From Pedobacter faecalis (GTDB lineage: Bacteria; Bacteroidota; Bacteroidia; Sphingobacteriales; Sphingobacteriaceae): a stretch of 64,000 nucleotides of DNA. Every line of letters begins with the position of its first letter. Positions within the stretch are counted from its first letter, which is position 1. Below are positions 5,701-35,427 of the stretch, piece by piece. Below the pieces are notes generated by a model. It saw only the letters and a program-made list of their open reading frames with translations, searched no databases and had not been told where the DNA came from. The DNA is taken from the NCBI RefSeq assembly GCF_030182585.1, contig NZ_JARXOW010000001.1, positions 620,001 to 684,000 of the forward strand, given 5' to 3'. A program made the position numbers and the translations under genes.

Positions 5701-8079
5701 TTATTCGTCTTTAAAAAATCTCCAGCTCAGGCCGGCCAATACCGCCCTGCCCTGCTGTGCCGGCATCAACTGATCCCGGTAGTCCATAATATTATCCGCA
5801 GTCAGCTGCAACTGCAGATGCTTACCATAAAATGTCTTCTGCACAGATACATTGAACAGAAAATAACCAGCCACAAACCGGTCCCAGCGGTCCAGGAAGT
5901 TATTTGCCCGGTTGTCCTCCATAAAACCATATCTGCTCCGATAGCTCAAACGGACAGCGCCTGTAAGCCCCAGTCGGTCATAAATGTAAGTCGCCTTCAG
6001 GTTGGCCATGTGCCGACTGCGATTGTTCATACCCACGTAATCACTTCTGCGCGAAGCACGCATGCGGTTGCTCAATACATCGTATGTTTGTCCGTATAGT
6101 CCAGTGCCGTTCCTTATCGAGTCTACCACCCCGCGGTCTACCGCGTATAGCAGCTGATAACCCGCCGAAAGGCTCAGCGAGCGCGAAGCTCTCCAGTTCC
6201 CACCCAGTTCCGCCCCGGCCGTATATGCTTTAGCGATATTCATATACGAATAGATCTGCTGACCGCTCGTCTTCAGGGCCACCTGTTCGTAGTTAATAAA
6301 ATTCCGCATATCATTGTAAAACAGGTTGATGTATAAGCCCAACGAAGCTAAAGGTTTATATTCAAACCCGCCGCTGTACGACACCGATCGCTCAGGTTTC
6401 AACTGGCCCACACGCTGCGCCATGGGAAACACGCTCATGATTTGTCCCCCCTCTTGCAGCCTTCCCATCTCGCGCCAAAACTCCTCGGCACCAAACACCG
6501 AATAGCCCGTCTGGATGTTTGTGAACACCATATACAACTGCTGGAAATTGGGCGTTTTAAAACCTGTGCCAATGGCCGCTTTTACGTTCATGTTATGGCC
6601 TGCCGCAAAACGCAAACCGAGACTCGGGTTCAGTTTGCTTCCATATTTGTCATGATAGTCGTACCTCGCCCCAGCGGTTACCGACAAGCGTTCAGCGGCC
6701 TGCCATTGCGCCTGTCCGTACACAAAATAATTTGACATACTTTTATTTCCCTGATAGAAATCATTATCCAGCAACTCATAGGCCGCACCGGCACCGCCAG
6801 TCAGGCCCAGTACTGCGGTCAACTGCCGGTCCGCCTGCAGCTCTGCGCGATGCAAATACTGCCTAAAATCACTGCCCGGCATCACCAGGCCGCTTTCCAG
6901 GTCGGTTACACCCTGTTTATTCTCGTACCGGGTCAGATAATACTGCGATTTTAAGCGCAAACCGTTGCTGAAATTGTTGTTCAGCGCTATCGAACCATTC
7001 AAATCGAACTCATTAAGCACATCCACACTCGGTTTCACACCCTGGTAAGCCAAACGGTTCTCCGAATGCCTGGTCACCAGTCGCCCGTTCAGGTTAACGG
7101 AACTCACATCACTCAGCACATACCTCATCCTTCCCTGTGCCGAATAACTGTTAAAAGGTGGTGCGGTCTTTCCCTCAGATAAATAAGGGTTCGAGTTAAA
7201 ACCATCCGTCCGGTAATAGTTGGCCGACAAATACGCGGATCCTTTTTTGTCCGCAAAGGGACTTTCCCCTTCCAGCGTCAGGTCGGTCATGTTAAAACTG
7301 CCATACTTCAGGGCGGCCATAGCCTGGGGCCGACTAATATGCTTGCGGGTAACGATGTTTACCACCCCCGCAAGCGCCTCACTGCCGAACAAGCAGGAAG
7401 ATGCTCCTTTAATGATTTCAATCCGTTCAATATTAGATACCGTGACCCTTGAGAGGTCGAAGTTGCCGTTATTCCGGCCAACCATAGGCTGCCCGTCAAT
7501 CATCACCATAGTATAGCCGCTATCAAAACCCTGCATTTGCAGGCCTACAGCGCGACTGCCCGAACCGATGTCGTTAACGATCGCCAACCCGGTCTGCTCT
7601 TTCAATACCTCGTCCAAGCGCCTGCTGCCCATCATTTCGATCTCTTCTCGACTAATCACCTTAGAAGGCATAGCCGTTTTGGTCATATCGATGAAATTAT
7701 CCGGATTACCATGCACACCCGCCACCTTCACTTCGCTAAGCTGCCGGCTGCTTGTCCGCAAACTCATTTTAACCTCGTTAGGCCGTCCCGCCCCAATACT
7801 TATCGTAATCTGTTCAGGCTCAAACCCCAACGCCGAAGCCGTCAAGGTGTAATCGCCCTCATACAAAGCCTTTATCAAAAACCTGCCTCGCGCATCAGTA
7901 ATTGCCCGCCTGTTGTCCGGTTGTAAAGTCACGCCCGCTTTCTCAATTGCCTTGCCGTGCTCGTCGCATATCAGTCCCCGAAGCTGCTGTTTGTCCTGCG
8001 CCTTCAGTGAGGGTACTGAAGGTTGGGCAAGGGCAAACAAGCAGCATAAGAGGAATTTATGGGGGATTCGGACAGACAT
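5701..8079 (-). CDS. TonB-dependent heme receptor
   Basis: An outer-membrane receptor of 792 residues if started at the ATG at 8079. That start gives a proper signal peptide (basic start, LLCCLFALA core, cleavage after LKAQ), whereas the longer reading from 8133 would add 18 unlikely residues. A carboxypeptidase-like regulatory domain follows at about residues 30-105, then the plug with SREEIEMMGSRRLDEVLKEQTG and IERIEIIKGASSCLFGSEALAGVVNIVTRK, and the 22-strand barrel ending in LAGLSWRFF. Receptors of this layout (HmuR, BtuB-like) import heme or similar ligands. The heme call comes from the downstream heme oxygenase and HmuY genes and from divergent hmuTUV. It is the first gene of the minus-strand operon. 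Confidence 0.88.
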   Translation of the reverse strand: MSVRIPHKFLLCCLFALAQPSVPSLKAQDKQQLRGLICDEHGKAIEKAGVTLQPDNRRAITDARGRFLIKALYEGDYTLTASALGFEPEQITISIGAGRPNEVKMSLRTSSRQLSEVKVAGVHGNPDNFIDMTKTAMPSKVISREEIEMMGSRRLDEVLKEQTGLAIVNDIGSGSRAVGLQMQGFDSGYTMVMIDGQPMVGRNNGNFDLSRVTVSNIERIEIIKGASSCLFGSEALAGVVNIVTRKHISRPQAMAALKYGSFNMTDLTLEGESPFADKKGSAYLSANYYRTDGFNSNPYLSEGKTAPPFNSYSAQGRMRYVLSDVSSVNLNGRLVTRHSENRLAYQGVKPSVDVLNEFDLNGSIALNNNFSNGLRLKSQYYLTRYENKQGVTDLESGLVMPGSDFRQYLHRAELQADRQLTAVLGLTGGAGAAYELLDNDFYQGNKSMSNYFVYGQAQWQAAERLSVTAGARYDYHDKYGSKLNPSLGLRFAAGHNMNVKAAIGTGFKTPNFQQLYMVFTNIQTGYSVFGAEEFWREMGRLQEGGQIMSVFPMAQRVGQLKPERSVSYSGGFEYKPLASLGLYINLFYNDMRNFINYEQVALKTSGQQIYSYMNIAKAYTAGAELGGNWRASRSLSLSAGYQLLYAVDRGVVDSIRNGTGLYGQTYDVLSNRMRASRRSDYVGMNNRSRHMANLKATYIYDRLGLTGAVRLSYRSRYGFMEDNRANNFLDRWDRFVAGYFLFNVSVQKTFYGKHLQLQLTADNIMDYRDQLMPAQQGRAVLAGLSWRFFKDE

Positions 8080-28632: not shown

Positions 28633-29634
28633 ATGAAAAGTCCGATCACTAGCAAAGTAATGCCTGTCTTAAACAAAAAAGCTGATTTGTATTTCAGAAA
28701 AGAAGCATTTACGATCAACTTCCATTATTATTATTGTGAAGATTCAGATGAGGAGTTTACAGATGATAAATTGGATGGCATTAATCAGACCCAGGTTTAT
28801 AATATGTACAGGGAGAAATATGGGATTCCCTTTCCCGACGAAATTAGCTCAATACGGGAGCAATACGGACTTTCATCTACAAAAATGTCATTGGTTCTTG
28901 GATTGGGCAGCAATGCCTATCGCCTCTACGAGGCAGGAGAGATGCCCTCTGTTGCGAACGGTCGCCTTGTTTTATCTGTTAAGCAGCCGGAAGCATTCAT
29001 CCGGCAAATAGAAGCAAGCAGCCATCTTTTAACTGGTAAAGAGCAGCAAAAGCTTACAGACAGAGCTAGGAAATTGCAGGAAGAACAGAAGCATGATCAA
29101 TGGAATAACCTGCTTTATCGACACATTTTTGGCGATCCCTGCCCGTCCGAGTTCAATGGGTATCAAACGCCAAGGTTAGATAAAATCGCAGCACTTATCA
29201 GTTTTTTCAGCCCTAAGATCGATTTATATAAGACCAAGATGAATAAAATATTATTCTATTGCGACTTTGTAATGTTCAAAAGCACTGCGCATTCTATGAC
29301 GGGAATAGCTTATAGAGCCATACCATACGGGCCTGTGCCTGTAGAATACGATAAACTATATATGAAACTATGTGATGATGGCAGCATCAGTATTGTTCCC
29401 AAGTTACTGAAAGATGGGAACTACGGCGAGATCATCCAGTCCGAAGCCAATGGAACGTACACCTTTACTGATGTCGAGCAGCAGGTTTTGAACAAAGTGT
29501 TAAACAAGTTTAAAGGCAAAACCACACAGCAGATCGTAGACATCAGTCATGAGGAGCTAGGTTGGCTAGAAAATGAAAATAATAAAGGCATAATAAGCTA
29601 TCAAAAATATGCTTTTAACCTAAAAGCAATTTAA
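28633..29634 (+). CDS. MqsA/YgiT-type antitoxin fused to a DUF4065 (SocA/Panacea) domain
   Basis: A 333-residue two-domain protein. Residues 1-125 resemble MqsA/YgiT: a former zinc-binding start that has lost its cysteine pairs (one Cys remains in YYYCEDSDEEF), followed by an XRE helix-turn-helix (IREQYGLSSTKMSLVLGLGSNAYRLYEAGEMPS). Residues 180-325 are a DUF4065 domain (RLDKIAALISFF, KTKMNKILFYCDFVMF, GIAYRAIPYGPVPVEYDKLY), known from the SocA antitoxin and from Panacea-type antitoxins that neutralise many toxins. It should bind the toxin encoded just upstream and repress their promoter. The pair sits between an ECF sigma gene and its anti-sigma gene on the opposite strand. Confidence 0.85.
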   Translation: MKSPITSKVMPVLNKKADLYFRKEAFTINFHYYYCEDSDEEFTDDKLDGINQTQVYNMYREKYGIPFPDEISSIREQYGLSSTKMSLVLGLGSNAYRLYEAGEMPSVANGRLVLSVKQPEAFIRQIEASSHLLTGKEQQKLTDRARKLQEEQKHDQWNNLLYRHIFGDPCPSEFNGYQTPRLDKIAALISFFSPKIDLYKTKMNKILFYCDFVMFKSTAHSMTGIAYRAIPYGPVPVEYDKLYMKLCDDGSISIVPKLLKDGNYGEIIQSEANGTYTFTDVEQQVLNKVLNKFKGKTTQQIVDISHEELGWLENENNKGIISYQKYAFNLKAI

Positions 29635-30270: not shown

Positions 30271-30536
30271 TTAATTAGCGTTTTCCCTTTACGGGTGTCC
30301 CTTTATAAATTTAACTAAAGTTTCGCAATAGTAAACTTTTTTCAGGACATAATGTTAAGAGCGGCCATGGTTCTAAAGACGGTGCTAAGATGTTATTCTT
30401 CAAAATACCTCAATAGAATTCATTTTATTTAGCTGTAAATCAATACTTTAATATAACACATTTCCTTGGAAATGTTGGGTTGAATTACATGTTATACTTA
30501 ACTTTGCTTATGGGACATACGTACAGTAAAATCGCG

Positions 30537-30544
30537 TATATTTG
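30537..30544 (+). promoter_or_regulatory. -7 element TATATTTG ahead of a short antitoxin-like gene
   Basis: A perfect TAnnTTTG element only five bases before the ATG at 30549, which would give an almost leaderless message. No TTG at the right distance was seen. It supports 30549 as the start over the longer reading from 30480. Confidence 0.4.
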
Positions 30545-30548
30545 TTAT

Positions 30549-30794
30549 ATGCAAAAACTTATTGTTCAGCCAAGAGATAAAAGGCAACTTTCACAAGTTA
30601 AAAGCGCACTAAAGGCCTTAGGCGTTCCTTTTACCCAAGAAGAGGTTGAACCTTATGATCGGGACTTTGTTAAAAAGGTCGAATCTAGTTTGGCAGAATT
30701 CGAGGCCGGAAAAACCACAAAAGTAAAATCTGAAGATCTTAAAAAATTTCTTGGCCTTTCAAACTACAATACTCTAGATTTCAGTCTTCAGTAG
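30549..30794 (+). CDS. Antitoxin-like small protein (DUF2683-like), orphan
   Basis: An 81-residue protein. MQKLIVQPRDKRQLSQVKSALKALGVPFTQEE is typical of short Bacteroidetes antitoxin-like proteins: a beta strand, then a helix, then an acidic partner-binding tail (DFVKKVESSLAEFEAGKTTKVKSEDLKKFLGL). Relatives usually end near that last leucine and are followed by a RelE-type toxin. Here the frame runs 11 residues further and overlaps the converging DinB-like gene by 14 bases, and no toxin gene follows. It may be a surviving antitoxin of a broken pair, or a solitary regulator. Confidence 0.55.
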   Translation: MQKLIVQPRDKRQLSQVKSALKALGVPFTQEEVEPYDRDFVKKVESSLAEFEAGKTTKVKSEDLKKFLGLSNYNTLDFSLQ

Positions 30795-31504: not shown

Positions 31505-32308
31505 ATCAATATTTTGTGTAAATAATTATTATTTTGAAACTTGGCTTTTCTGCACAGATCTGCATAGGTTTGCTGAAATAATTCTTATGCCAATTACATC
31601 CAGATTCCTCGACCCGCTTACCGACTTTGGTTTCAAACGCCTCTTCGGGAGCGAACCCGACAAAGACATCATGATCGATTTTCTAAACGTTCTCTTTGAG
31701 GGCGAGAAAGTCATTGCCGACATCAGTTACAGTCCGACCGAAATAAACGGAGCTAGTTCAAAAGAGAAAAAAGTGCTTCTCGACCTCACCTGCACTGGTG
31801 TCGATGGAGAAAAGTTTATTATTGAAATGCAGCGCACCGATCAGGAGTTCTTCAGCGACCGCTGCGTGTTTTATATGTCAAGATTGATCAGCTCCCAACT
31901 GACCAAAGACAGTTCCAACTGGTCTTCAGCCCTCAGTGAGGTCTATTTAATCGGGATCATGGAGTTTTCTTTCAGGGAATCCGATGGCGACTATCTGCAT
32001 AATATCAAGTTGGCAAATCTTAAGACCGGCAAGGTTTTTCACAATGGCATGGGTTATAAATTCCTGGAATTGCCTAACTTTGATAAGAGCGAAGCGGAAT
32101 TGCAGACCGACCTGGACAAATGGTTTTATGTTTTAAAAAACCTGAGCAGTCTGGACAAGATACCTGCAATCCTCGACAAAAGAGTTTTTCAAAAGATCTT
32201 TAAAATTGCGGAGGTAAGCAAAATGACTAAAGAAGAACAAGAACTTTACGATTCAGATCTCAAAGCCAAATCTGACTGGAACGCAGGGATTGAGTGGGCT
32301 AAGAAGCA
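31505..32308 (+). repeat. 804-base direct repeat, copy 1 (Rpn gene body and leader)
   Basis: Starts at ATCAATATTTTGTGTA, 82 bases before the Rpn start codon, and runs to AAGAAGCA near codon 241. It matches 34452-35255 with few mismatches and no gaps that I can see. Similarity ends sharply inside the coding region, after which the two genes have different 3' ends. Confidence 0.85.
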
Positions 32309-32429
32309 GGCCGATCACGAAGCAACATTGAGGATAGCTCTTAACTTCCTCAAACGTGGCTTTACCGCGGAGCAAGTTTCTGCAGGAACTGGCTTGTCAT
32401 TGGAAGAAGTGCACAAACTTCAGAGTTAG
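31587..32429 (+). CDS. Rpn-family PD-(D/E)XK nuclease (copy 1)
   Basis: A 280-residue member of the Rpn (recombination-promoting nuclease, 'putative transposase') family. The opening DPLTDFGFKRLFGSEPDKDIMIDFLNVLF is the family hallmark. The nuclease core is VLLDLTCTGVDGEKFIIEMQRTDQEFFSDRCVFYMSRL (residues 62-99), with Asp66 and the Glu-Met-Gln of IIEMQ as active-site candidates. The last 40 residues (ADHEATLRIALNFLKRGFTAEQVSAGTGLSLEEVHKL) form a small helix-turn-helix-like end that differs from copy 2. Rpn proteins cut DNA, and in E. coli some defend against phage while being held by a small protein made from inside the same gene. An internal start with a good Shine-Dalgarno site is present here too. 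Confidence 0.88.
   Translation: MPITSRFLDPLTDFGFKRLFGSEPDKDIMIDFLNVLFEGEKVIADISYSPTEINGASSKEKKVLLDLTCTGVDGEKFIIEMQRTDQEFFSDRCVFYMSRLISSQLTKDSSNWSSALSEVYLIGIMEFSFRESDGDYLHNIKLANLKTGKVFHNGMGYKFLELPNFDKSEAELQTDLDKWFYVLKNLSSLDKIPAILDKRVFQKIFKIAEVSKMTKEEQELYDSDLKAKSDWNAGIEWAKKQADHEATLRIALNFLKRGFTAEQVSAGTGLSLEEVHKLQS
32210..32225 (+). promoter_or_regulatory. Internal Shine-Dalgarno site plus ATG in Rpn copy 1
   Basis: GGAGG at 32210-32214, an eight-base spacer, and an in-frame ATG at 32223. Strong Shine-Dalgarno sites are rare in this window, so its position at the border between nuclease core and variable end is notable. Confidence 0.5.
32223..32429 (+). CDS. Possible intragenic C-terminal protein of Rpn copy 1 (68 aa)
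   Basis: In-frame product that would start at Met213 of the nuclease (MTKEEQELYDSDLKAKSDW) and end at the same stop. It would consist of the linker helix and the variable helix-turn-helix-like tail. In E. coli, short forms of this kind made from inside rpn genes bind and inhibit the full nuclease. Whether this one is made is unknown; the evidence is the GGAGG-N8-ATG and the parallel site in copy 2. Confidence 0.35.
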   Translation: MTKEEQELYDSDLKAKSDWNAGIEWAKKQADHEATLRIALNFLKRGFTAEQVSAGTGLSLEEVHKLQS

Positions 32430-32439
32430 GCAGACAACA

Positions 32440-32489
32440 AAAATGACTAAAGAAGAACAGGAACTTTACGATTCAGATCTCAAAGTCAA
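32440..32489 (+). repeat. Fragment of a third Rpn 3' segment
   Basis: Fifty bases just after the copy 1 stop match 32220-32269 (48 of 50 by eye). They begin at the same ATG-ACT-AAA codons as the internal start and end within the following codons. It has no GGAGG before it and runs into a stop after 22 codons. It looks like the stump of a replaced 3' end. Confidence 0.8.
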
Positions 32490-32492
32490 GCC

Positions 32493-33026
32493 CTACCTTA
32501 AGATATCATAACGCAGCGATACCAAACCCGTTTCATAAGTCTTACTTTCCAGCAAAGTAAGCTGCGAACGATGGTCCTGTCCGGTAAACAATGGCCTTCC
32601 GCTGCCAAGCAATATCGGGTGTACCGATAACCACAACTCATCCACTAGCCCAGCCTTCATCATGGCCTCATTCAGAGAGGCACCACCGAACAACCAAATG
32701 TCTTTGCCCGGCATTTCCTTCAGGCGCTGGGCCTCGATCATACTATCGCCCGAAACCAACACCGCGCCCTCCTTCACCTCTTGTAGTGTATTCGAAAACA
32801 CATATTCTTGAAGCGGAGGCATGCCGGGAACAGCTTCACCCCCATGCTCAGCCACATGCTTTTGCAAAGTTTCATAGCTTTTCCGCCCGATAAACATCGC
32901 ATCGATCCGCTCATAAAATTCATTCAGACCATAATCCTGGTCCGTGAAGCACCAATCATATTCACCGTTTGGACCTTCGATATAACCGTCAAGCGTAACG
33001 GCCAATCCTAAAATTAGTTTCCTCAT
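32493..33026 (-). CDS. Dihydrofolate reductase-like (RibD C-terminal) protein
   Basis: A 177-residue cytosolic protein of the RibD-C/DHFR-like fold. MRKLILGLAVTLDGYIEGPNGEYDW at the start, DAMFIGRKSYETL near residue 42, DIWLFGGASLNEAMMKAGLVDELWLSVHPILLGSGRPLF near 109-147 are typical of YwjB/YyaP-like reductases that bind NADPH. The substrate is unknown; these stand-alone forms are not part of riboflavin operons. It has its own promoter and converges on the Rpn gene, with only the 50-base Rpn fragment between them. Confidence 0.87.
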   Translation of the reverse strand: MRKLILGLAVTLDGYIEGPNGEYDWCFTDQDYGLNEFYERIDAMFIGRKSYETLQKHVAEHGGEAVPGMPPLQEYVFSNTLQEVKEGAVLVSGDSMIEAQRLKEMPGKDIWLFGGASLNEAMMKAGLVDELWLSVHPILLGSGRPLFTGQDHRSQLTLLESKTYETGLVSLRYDILR

Positions 33027-33045
33027 CTCTGTTTAATTTAAAGCT

Positions 33046-33074
33046 CAAAGGTAGGGCAACGAAAGCATGGCAAA
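33046..33074 (-). promoter_or_regulatory. Promoter of the DHFR-like gene
   Basis: The minus strand has TTTG (33074-33071), a 17-base spacer and TACCTTTG (33053-33046), 19 bases before the ATG at 33026. Good match to the Bacteroidetes pattern, spacer at the short end. Confidence 0.5.
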
Positions 33075-33090
33075 TTGTACAAAACGGACA

Positions 33091-33873
33091 TCAATACAAA
33101 ATATGATCCGAGCGCACCAATACACCCGGCGTACTCCCTGTAAATTCCTTATAATCCCTTATAAAATGTGCCTGATCATAATACCCAGATCTATGAGCGA
33201 GCTCAGTAAGCGAATGATTCGGATAGTATTTTAATTGCTGTAGAGAGTAAATGAACCGGGTGACCCGCAAGTACTCCTTCGGCGGTAAACCCAGGTTATG
33301 ACCAAACTTTCTGGAAAGCTGGCGCTGACTCAATCCGGAGAGACCACTGATGTCACCCGCGGAAAGATTACCCTTTGCATGTTCAATATGCTTCATACAA
33401 TATACAAAGACAGCATCCGTTTTGCTGCCCATAAGCTGTGCAATGAGATAGTTCTGCAAGATATTAACTTTCTCCAGCGCTGAACTACTGAGTTCCAGTT
33501 GCTCTTCCAGAATACCCGAACTCGACTTCCAAAGATCAGAAAGCGGCGTAGTGGTATTGGCTAGTTCACTCATCGGGATCTTGAAAAAACGCTGTGCCAT
33601 TCCGGGATAAAAGCACAGGGCGACACAACCGGATCCTTTTCGCATTCGAACATCCGCATACCGGTTCATCCTGAATGTTACGATGCTTCGCGTGTACAAT
33701 CGCTCATCAATCACCGCCACAGGCGAACTTGTATAGTTGAGAAAAATTTCCACACAAGCGTCTGGCAAAACACGGACATGGCTCGTATCTGCATCCTTAT
33801 CGCATTCCATGGTACAAATCGACTTTACGTAAGGCGCAAGCTTTGGCTTGATGTTATATAACTGCAGTTGCAT
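33091..33873 (-). CDS. AraC-family regulator with DUF6597-type sensor domain
   Basis: A 260-residue regulator. The N-terminal half (PKLAPYVKSICTMEC, RVLPDACVEIFLNY, ALCFYPGMAQRFFKIPMSELANTTTPLSDLW) is the DUF6597 sensor common in Bacteroidetes AraC proteins. The C-terminal half has the two helix-turn-helix units (AGDISGLSGLSQRQLSRKFGHNLGLPPKEYLRVTRF and SLTELAHRSGYYDQAHFIRDYKEFTGSTPGVL). It probably regulates neighbouring genes, perhaps the DHFR-like gene 65 bases downstream on the same strand. Effector unknown. Confidence 0.87.
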   Translation of the reverse strand: MQLQLYNIKPKLAPYVKSICTMECDKDADTSHVRVLPDACVEIFLNYTSSPVAVIDERLYTRSIVTFRMNRYADVRMRKGSGCVALCFYPGMAQRFFKIPMSELANTTTPLSDLWKSSSGILEEQLELSSSALEKVNILQNYLIAQLMGSKTDAVFVYCMKHIEHAKGNLSAGDISGLSGLSQRQLSRKFGHNLGLPPKEYLRVTRFIYSLQQLKYYPNHSLTELAHRSGYYDQAHFIRDYKEFTGSTPGVLVRSDHILY

Positions 33874-34004
33874 AATTTCGAACTGGGTTTACAGTTTAAG
33901 GCGTTTGCTGCGGCATAAAGTTAGTGATATTCCGACAGTCTTTGCCGGCGACAGAACGGGAAAGTCATTCGGGACAGGAAATCCGTACCCTCCCTTATCC
34001 ACCA

Positions 34005-34298
34005 GTCGTCGTGAAACTGGGAGAAAAGATGGCTGACACGGCATTGAAGAGTCTGGACGGTACAGTGCATACCTTGTCAGACTTTAAAGGCAAATATTTA
34101 CTTATCGATTTCTGGAGCATGGTCGTGGCCCATGCATCTGACCGATGGCAAAGGAATGTCCGGGCTGGCCGCCAGGTATGGCGTAAGTGGAATACCACAT
34201 TATATTATCATAAGTCCGGACGGTGTACTGATAGATTCATGGGTGGTTACTCCCAGGGCCTTCTCACTAAAAAACTGGAAGAGCTACTCAAAATTTAA
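34005..34298 (+). pseudogene. Broken TlpA/thioredoxin-like gene
   Basis: The first frame reads VVVKLGEKMADTALKSLDG then LSDFKGKYLLIDFWS, the typical start of a TlpA or AhpC/TSA-type thioredoxin fold. The expected Cys-x-x-Cys and about 60 residues are missing. The homology then goes on in another frame (GMSGLAARYGVSGIPHYIII, then SPDGVLIDSW, from about 34155) and returns to the first frame for LLTKKLEELLKI up to the stop at 34298. So it has an internal deletion and two frameshifts and cannot make a working oxidoreductase. It lies between the two Rpn repeats. Confidence 0.8.
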
Positions 34299-34451
34299 GG
34301 CTTTACTTCGATACATTATTATTATCTTTTTCCTGGAAGATTGATTAGCACGGAAAGGTCTGAAATAGAAGTTACCGGCGTTGGTAAGTCGTAAGGAAGA
34401 CCAATTCAAATTACACAAACACGCTATATAAAGCAGTATACAGCATTGTTT

Positions 34452-35255
34452 ATCAATATTTTGTGTAGATAATTATTATTTTGAAACTTGGCTTTTCTGC
34501 ACAGATCTGCATAGGTTTGCTGAAATAATTCTTATGCCAATTACATCCAGATTCCTCGACCCGCTTACCGACTTTGGTTTCAAACGCCTCTTCGGGAGCG
34601 AACCCGACAAAGACATTATGATCGACTTTCTAAACGTTCTCTTTGAGGGCGAGAAAGTCATTGCCGACATCAGTTACAGTCCGACCGAAATAAACGGAGC
34701 TAGTTCAAAAGAGAAAAAAGTGCTTTTCGACCTCACCTGCACCGGCGCCGACGGTGAAAAGTTTATCATCGAAATGCAACGTACCGATCAGGAGTTCTTC
34801 AGCGACCGCTGCGTGTTCTATATGTCAAGATTGATCAGCTCCCAACTGGCCAAAGACAGCTCCAATTGGTCCTCAGCTCTCAGTGAGGTATATCTGATCG
34901 GCATTATGGAGTTTTCTTTCAAGGAATCCGACGGCGACTACTTGCATAACATCAAACTGGCAAATCTTAAGACCGGCAAGGTTTTTCACAATGGCATGGG
35001 TTATAAATTCCTGGAATTGCCTAACTTTGATAAGAGCGAAGCGGAATTGCAGACCGACCTGGACAAATGGTTTTACATATTGAAGAACCTGAGCAGTCTG
35101 GACAAAATCCCTGCAATCCTAGACAAAAGGGTTTTTCAAAAGATCTTTAAAATTGCGGAGGTAAGCAAAATGACTAAAGAAGAACAAGAACTTTACGATT
35201 CAGATCTCAAAGCCAAATCTGATTGGAACGCAGGTATTGAGTGGGCTAAGAAGCA
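34452..35255 (+). repeat. 804-base direct repeat, copy 2 (Rpn gene body and leader)
   Basis: Matches 31505-32308 from 82 bases before the start codon to codon 241. Most differences are silent third-position changes. The two copies are 2947 bases apart, so recombination between them would delete the DHFR-like, AraC and TlpA-like genes. Confidence 0.85.
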
Positions 35256-35427
35256 AGCTGCGCAGGAAGCATATGACGAAGCATCTAGAGAAGCAGAAGA
35301 ACGCATATTGCAGATCGCCCATGACCTTAAAATGCAGATCGCCCGAAAACTCAAACAGAAAGGAGCCAGTGACGCTGAAATCTCGGAACTCACTGGGCTT
35401 TCCCTCGAGGAAATCAAAGCGCTGTAG
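34534..35427 (+). CDS. Rpn-family PD-(D/E)XK nuclease (copy 2)
   Basis: A 297-residue protein almost identical to copy 1 over its first 241 residues, including DPLTDFGFKRLFGSEPD and the VLFDLTCTGADGEKFIIEMQRTDQEFF core. The end is different: an Ala/Glu-rich coiled-coil-like helix (QEAYDEASREAEERILQIAHDLKMQIARKLKQKG) and a short helix-turn-helix-like finish (ASDAEISELTGLSLEEIKAL). Both copies thus end with a 'TGLSLEEI/V' unit preceded by a variable helix. The intact, mostly silently diverged body indicates that both copies are kept under selection, or are recently duplicated. The GGAGG plus internal ATG is conserved. Confidence 0.88.
   Translation: MPITSRFLDPLTDFGFKRLFGSEPDKDIMIDFLNVLFEGEKVIADISYSPTEINGASSKEKKVLFDLTCTGADGEKFIIEMQRTDQEFFSDRCVFYMSRLISSQLAKDSSNWSSALSEVYLIGIMEFSFKESDGDYLHNIKLANLKTGKVFHNGMGYKFLELPNFDKSEAELQTDLDKWFYILKNLSSLDKIPAILDKRVFQKIFKIAEVSKMTKEEQELYDSDLKAKSDWNAGIEWAKKQAAQEAYDEASREAEERILQIAHDLKMQIARKLKQKGASDAEISELTGLSLEEIKAL
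35157..35172 (+). promoter_or_regulatory. Internal Shine-Dalgarno site plus ATG in Rpn copy 2
   Basis: GGAGG at 35157-35161, eight-base spacer, ATG at 35170, the same arrangement as in copy 1. Confidence 0.5.
35170..35427 (+). CDS. Possible intragenic C-terminal protein of Rpn copy 2 (85 aa)
   Basis: In-frame product from Met213 of copy 2 to the shared stop. It would contain the common MTKEEQELYDSDLKAKSDW helix and the copy-specific coiled-coil and helix-turn-helix-like tail. The tail could give self-pairing that is specific to its own full-length nuclease. Expression is not proven; see the matching entry in copy 1. Confidence 0.35.
   Translation: MTKEEQELYDSDLKAKSDWNAGIEWAKKQAAQEAYDEASREAEERILQIAHDLKMQIARKLKQKGASDAEISELTGLSLEEIKAL

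Follow-up and report, generated by a model that had tools for sequence, protein, structure and literature searches.

The stretch of DNA analysed here in full, hereafter the window, comprises 64,000 nucleotides (nt) of contig NZ_JARXOW010000001.1 of Pedobacter faecalis and contains two genes for Rpn-type nucleases, each with a possible second start codon inside the gene (Table 1). Both proteins match PF12784 (E 1.5e-75 and 1.2e-75, 254 bits against a cut-off of 27.4) and TIGR01784 (110.5 and 110.0 bits against a cut-off of 52.1), which places them in the Rpn family, as the first-pass annotation had done from the letters alone; the same Pfam search returned no PF04754 row for either protein at E values up to 1, and they are not members of that family. 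Residues D66 and E80 are invariant and Q82 is kept in at least 90% of 56 aligned rows (copy 2 of the window and 55 from the 120 listed of 574 proteins), and both window copies carry all three; we take this D...ExQ pattern to be the conserved acidic nuclease motif of the family. In a pairwise alignment the cores of the two copies are 97% identical over 246 residues, a leader of approximately 82 nt is common to both, and the tails diverge from about residue 246. The copies are evidently the product of one recent duplication, with tails of different length. Among the four copies of the window and P. deserti, the ratio of nonsynonymous to synonymous substitution rates is 0.009-0.067 over the six pairs, which indicates purifying selection. 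An AlphaFold2 model of copy 2 (mean predicted local distance difference test score 86.8) has a long helix from residue 215 to residue 275.

For E. coli Rpn nucleases, an antitoxin encoded within the nuclease gene, RpnS, has been shown by experiment; the known systems named in that report are RpnA-E and RpnP2 of E. coli and rpn of C. difficile, for which a short form was seen when the gene was cloned in E. coli (PMC10327210). In both window copies a GGAGG stands eight nucleotides before an in-frame ATG at codon 213 (M213), just as first annotated, and the open reading frames (ORFs) bear out the possible products of 68 and 85 residues. The annotation had also set M213 at the border of core and variable end. 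The residue lies within the end of the Pfam match, which spans residues 10-236, and in the loop before the long helix; the tails diverge from about residue 246. At the level of sequence, each gene has a candidate in-frame internal start with a ribosome-binding signal, here a Shine-Dalgarno (SD) sequence, before its C-terminal module. The predicted pairing is -10.9 kcal/mol at both sites, calculated, like all pairing energies given here, against a presumed anti-SD tail. An internal in-frame GGAGG-(4-10)-ATG is also present in 23 of 338 host genes (taken from 21 stretches totalling 464 kb, with the first ATG of each long ORF as the start). Given this frequency, and given that the two copies derive from one duplication, the site alone is not significant; taken alone it is weak, and the evidence must therefore come from relatives.

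Table 1. Coordinates of the rpn genes, internal sites and related features (positions in the window unless a locus is named)
Feature	Position	Strand	Remarks
Leader of copy 1	31505..31586	+	Duplicated with gene; main start without SD
rpn copy 1, full-length nuclease, 280 residues, RpnL-like	31587..32429	+	ORF; PF12784 and TIGR01784 matches
Internal GGAGG-N8-ATG of copy 1	32210..32225, ATG 32223 = M213	+	GGAGGTAAGCAAAATG
Proposed short form 1, RpnS-like, 68 residues	32223..32429	+	Inferred; member of profile A2
Relic of free-standing tail gene, 22 codons and stop	32443..32511	+	Like copy 1 from 3 nt before ATG
Leader of copy 2	34452..34533	+	Near-identical to copy 1 leader; main start without SD
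rpn copy 2, full-length nuclease, 297 residues	34534..35427	+	ORF; PF12784 and TIGR01784 matches
Internal GGAGG-N8-ATG of copy 2	35157..35172, ATG 35170 = M213	+	GGAGGTAAGCAAAATG
Proposed short form 2, RpnS-like, 85 residues	35170..35427	+	Inferred; member of profile A2
Second Rpn-type pair	L239:1648-2604 and 7020-8027 (G000 contig 1, 2126648 and 2132020)		Hinge AAAGGAG-N7-ATG

Of 145 matching ORFs, 114 passed as full-length and made up the set of PF12784 homologues, with 110 from Sphingobacteriaceae and 4 from another family (genome G036). At 80% identity they fall into 54 clusters; the 114 include both L024 and L049, which are a single gene, and leave out L001, L002, L006 and L043, which repeat the window loci. 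An ATG with GGAGG 4-10 nt upstream, within the 12 codons around M213 (the hinge), is present in 71 of the 114 genes and 34 of the 54 clusters. When synonymous codons were shuffled within genes, 5.6±2.1 clusters had such a site, and 34 was reached in none of 2000 shuffles. Coarser clustering gave 21 of 34 clusters at 70% identity and 11 of 20 at 60%, each with no value as high in 500 shuffles. GGAGG precedes 34 of the 47 in-frame ATGs inside the hinge versus 0 of 265 outside it. Of the 46 clusters that have an ATG in the hinge, 34 show a predicted SD pairing between -9.3 and -16.3 kcal/mol. The usual site, which we call site B, reads AAG GAG GAA nnn (nnn) ATG, encodes the peptide K-E-E-x-(x)-M, and has its ATG 6 or 7 codons past the M213 column. 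Its Lys-Glu pair is written AAG-GAG in 25 of 28 clusters, versus 21 of 127 such pairs elsewhere in the genes and 103 of 493 in host genes. These comparisons show that selection acts on the hinge start site through the choice of codons.

The same genome contains a second Rpn-type pair (Table 1), whose cores share 95% identity over 291 residues and whose tails differ in length. Pfam returned no match for these genes, and their TIGR01784 scores of 57.5 and 42.6 lie above and below the cut-off, respectively. The hinge of this subfamily reads GAA/GGA-AGG-AGT/AGC-nnn-nnn-ATG, with the SD in another codon frame and a different hinge peptide. GGAG or GAGG precedes the hinge ATG in 15 of 24 rows, compared with 4.5±1.8 in shuffles, none of 1000 of which reached 15; the rows are unclustered, and two are near-identical copies from the genome itself. 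Two more rows keep AGGAG and have GTG instead of ATG. This count, and that for the 31 further homologues considered below, follows the looser GGAG/GAGG rule and not GGAGG, and covers the rows that passed length and coverage.

Ordinary starts in the three genomes tested do not use SD sequences. With a simple ORF caller, GGAG or GAGG was found 5-18 nt before the start of 17 of the 338 host genes and in the control stretch of 16, which is background, and the same caller gave 4 of 121 (control 8) and 1 of 129 (control 3) in two other Sphingobacteriaceae genomes. Applied to 50 kb of E. coli it gave 15 of 34 (control 1), and 33 of 55 annotated E. coli starts carry GGAG or GAGG (control 1). An automatic procedure placed the main start in 110 of the 114 rpn genes, and none of the 110 has GGAG or GAGG before it. 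The first-pass annotation had described clear GGAGG sites as uncommon in the window. This is accurate in the sense of start signals, GGAG or GAGG being at background before ordinary starts, but not for the word GGAGG itself, which occurs 94 times versus 91.2 expected, or chance level. The spaced combination GGAGG-N8-ATG occurs six times in the window versus 1.4 expected, a count that includes one duplicated pair. The rpsU gene of this genome (L218, reverse strand, upstream of the ATG at 1492) has a strong SD of -17.3 kcal/mol against the same presumed tail. This is in line with PMC9976891, according to which nearly all Sphingobacteriales have a strong SD at rpsU.

On a tree of the family, which includes 11 loci added by choice, the window clade is placed among genes with site B, and the internal ATG has repeatedly switched from one of two registers to the other. 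In the window pair the signal is at what we call site A (GCG GAG GTA AGC AAA ATG), seven codons upstream of the usual site; at site B the pair reads AAA GAA GAA CAA GAA CTT, with neither SD nor ATG. An ATG at M213 is found in a nine-row clade (support 93/77, not starred) and in three unrelated rows without GGAGG. Thus the window clade conserves the ATG, and the strong signal at that ATG is new; neither site is found in the closest outgroups.

Some members of the family carry free-standing, rpnS-type copies of the tail downstream. The hinge-plus-tail sequence is repeated within 700 nt downstream in 20 of 115 entries, 16 of which are distinct and clear (those set aside are L049, a duplicate, and L056, L095 and L148, which are partial or unclear). 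In 15 of the 16 the position that corresponds to the internal ATG of the parent is taken by an in-frame ATG, in registers 0, +3, +5, +6 or +7, where the standalone frames start at an ATG picked by eye and so show that an ATG is present, not that it is the best start; at L024 the ATG is two codons off that of the parent. The likeness starts 0-28 nt before the ATG in 14 of 16 distances, with L024 and L035 differing and L026 not included. Tails are truncated at L094 and in one of three at L026, and those of L111 and L097 run off the stretch. The window itself holds the relic of such a gene, absent from the first-pass annotation, in which likeness to copy 1 extends over 50 nt (32440-32489), 13 nt past the stop of copy 1, and the rest is gone. 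At the same place in P. deserti, also 13 nt past the stop of copy 1, lies an intact tail gene of 77 residues (P0121, hypothetical protein; L146:2857-3087) that opens with the M213 ATG and whose tail is closer to copy 2 than to copy 1.

Other arrangements of tails and cores were also seen. At L026:2340-3014, three successive standalone tails follow one rpn gene, one of them shortened by a frame change, and at L033 two standalone tails retain AAAGGAGG. About 3 kb after the full-length gene L003 of the same genome, L005:1567-1875 (G000 contig 1, ~2020830) consists of hinge and tail with most of the nuclease core gone and a different last part of the tail. L122 (G032 contig 1, 326500-333900) holds three decayed tandem rpn copies with open C-terminal parts and differing tail ends, and separate N-terminal pieces were seen for two of the three. 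Pieces of rpn without a tail also exist. PF27070 is precomputed for two standalone tails and several full-length Rpn proteins (P0121, P0123, P0002 and others), and was not reported by the copy of Pfam searched here.

The tail is predicted to form a three-helix module. In a profile search, a profile of the tails (A2) matched E. coli RpnA-S (7th0) with E = 0.0045. RpnA-S was also the first row in a predicted-fold search with the tail, where its residues 244-289 aligned to residues 31-76 of the 77-residue tail; helix-turn-helix proteins such as TrpR are among the lower matches. Sequence and predicted fold together indicate that the C-terminal module is homologous to RpnS. Like E. coli Rpn/RpnS, as described in PMC10327210, the Pedobacter genes combine a nuclease core with a C-terminal helical module, an internal ATG with an SD-type sequence, downstream free-standing copies, and tail lengths in four-residue units. 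For example, the tails of the relatives L148, L150 and L147 differ by 0, 8 and 16 residues of GKLE-type units; the window tails differ by 19, which is no multiple of four. Bacteroides fragilis is among the species named there as having the repeats (PMC10327210). Unlike E. coli RpnA, which matches PF04754 in the Pfam search, the Pedobacter core matches PF12784. The internal start also lies further upstream than in RpnA-S, by about 30 residues in the 77-residue tail and presumably some 20 in the shortest ones, and the Pedobacter host differs from E. coli in having no SD at ordinary starts, yet a strong hinge SD in most clusters.

What the analysis shows is the gene structure, the conservation of start sites, the existence of standalone genes and a tail that resembles RpnA-S, and on comparative analysis we consider it probable that the two genes are nuclease/intragenic-antitoxin pairs, a variant of the published Rpn system. 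Each gene would encode a PD-(D/E)XK-type Rpn nuclease, RpnL, and, by translation from the codon-213 ATG, its own C-terminal helical module, RpnS. By analogy with the E. coli system (PMC10327210), the full-length protein would be a DNA nuclease held by the short form; RpnS, which shares the tail with its RpnL, would most likely pair via the long tail helix and block the nuclease, as in E. coli RpnA. Because the RpnL/RpnS tails are of different length, pairing would probably be cognate only, each short form fitting just its own nuclease, and the pairs may act against phage. A further free-standing tail gene formerly stood behind copy 1. The first-pass annotation was probably right about this kind of system, for reasons that were too weak. 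Its two internal starts are not independent evidence, and it is the standalone tail gene, the selection on the hinge SD-ATG in the family and the likeness to RpnA-S that now carry the proposal.

Several observations weigh against it. Apart from the window and P. deserti, whose genome (G500) was assigned to the same species as the window, no row was seen with GGAGG before M213; sister sequences retain that ATG but lack the GGAGG, having GGAAATGAGTAAAATG, GGAGATGAGTAAAATG or close variants, and GGAGG-ATG is absent from both site A and site B in the nearest outgroups (L007, L008, L149 and L011). The usual hinge signal of the family is a different one, with its ATG 6 or 7 codons further downstream, and the two window genes lack it. 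No hinge GGAGG-ATG is present in 20 of the 54 clusters, and clustering at 50% identity leaves 2 of 7 groups with the site, a weak result matched in 6 of 500 shuffles. Among 31 further PF12784 homologues, 4 of them from Sphingobacteriaceae, GGAG or GAGG precedes the hinge ATG in only 4, 2 of which are from Sphingobacteriaceae, and the signal is therefore largely confined to that family. Most standalone tails, the P. deserti one included, have no GGAGG before the ATG, and among the standalone frames read only L033 and L054 keep it; at the others an A-rich leader may be sufficient. At L189, L192 and L216, in the sister clade, the likeness extends upstream of the ATG and does not mark the start. 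RpnA-S ranks 14th of 18 in the profile search, behind repeat proteins, and its fold match is tied within one Z unit with the unrelated 4y66 (5.2, root-mean-square deviation 8.0). Finally, the ribosomes of Bacteroidia are reported (PMC9976891) not to recognise SD signals and to hide their anti-SD, and a strong SD here is therefore no evidence of strong initiation, unlike in E. coli.

The window site could be a coincidence, with M213 a mere hinge residue, no short protein, and a tail that serves the full-length protein only, in dimerisation or DNA contact. Such a reading would suit the in-frame GGAGG-ATG of 23 of 338 host genes, the presence of GGAGG at M213 in one species only and the background level of SD at the host's ordinary starts. 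It is nevertheless quite unlikely, given that the M213 ATG is the first codon of both the standalone gene of P. deserti and the relic in the window, and that codon choice preserves a hinge SD-ATG among relatives, in hinge peptides of two different kinds. Alternatively, the internal start may be real and its short product no inhibitor, joining the nuclease as a stoichiometric subunit or acting as a regulator that binds DNA, as the three-helix tail with its lower fold matches to helix-turn-helix proteins such as TrpR might suggest; Cas11d is cited by Zhong et al. as an internal product whose role is complementary (PMC10327210). We think this unlikely. The fold search places first RpnA-S, which experiments have shown to be an antitoxin (PMC10327210), and L005 and L122 have hinge and tail with a lost or broken core, the latter being a weak argument as tail-less pieces exist too.

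A different explanation for the conserved hinge DNA is that it is a recombination or cleavage site for the exchange or displacement of tails, its resemblance to a start signal being incidental. Free-standing tails begin at the hinge, copies with common cores have differing tails, and most standalone tails did not carry the SD along, all of which would fit. However, the conserved feature is an SD and a start codon at a fitting distance, the ATG has moved between two registers several times on the tree, and in the second subfamily the signal lies in another codon frame with a different peptide, two rows having GTG for ATG, and we judge this explanation very improbable.

If the two genes are nuclease/intragenic-antitoxin pairs, the comparative evidence extends the intragenic Rpn antitoxin to PF12784-type nucleases of Bacteroidota, with a start site whose register varies from clade to clade and whose codon frame differs between the two subfamilies. 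The same evidence poses a puzzle, in that a strong SD lies inside many rpn genes while ordinary genes have none and the rRNA tail of Bacteroidia is reported to be hidden (PMC9976891). The rpn genes resemble rpsU of Bacteroidia, which encodes bS21 and is read by ribosomes lacking it (PMC9976891), in having a strong SD despite such ribosomes; unlike rpsU, where the SD stands before the whole gene, the SD of rpn is internal and its pairing weaker. According to the same source, loss of bS21 raises the output of strong-SD reporters, and bS21 is encoded by many aquatic phages, Bacteroidia seeming to be the main hosts of such myoviruses. With no SD at the start of the nuclease, and often a strong one at that of the antitoxin, the balance between the two products could follow ribosome composition. 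A speculative and decidedly improbable extension is that the Sphingobacteriaceae antitoxin is tied to ribosome state, the gene within a gene acting as a sensor of phage translational takeover. The nuclease start would be read by ordinary ribosomes and the strong SD of the antitoxin best by ribosomes lacking bS21, such that once bS21 was filled or replaced, above all by phage bS21, less antitoxin would be made and the nuclease freed. The one direct support for this would be the conservation of the SD in Sphingobacteriaceae genomes; against it, the clade of the window itself has not conserved the SD, and most standalone tails are without it.

A PADLOC search gave no match for the two Rpn proteins or 10 neighbouring proteins, which says nothing on their activity. 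Just upstream of the rpn pair are a gene with a SocA/Panacea domain, an antitoxin-type domain (28633-29634), and a DUF2683 gene (30489-30794). Between the two copies, 33924-34298 is presumably a decayed thioredoxin-like gene, and matching sequence is also present at that place in P. deserti.

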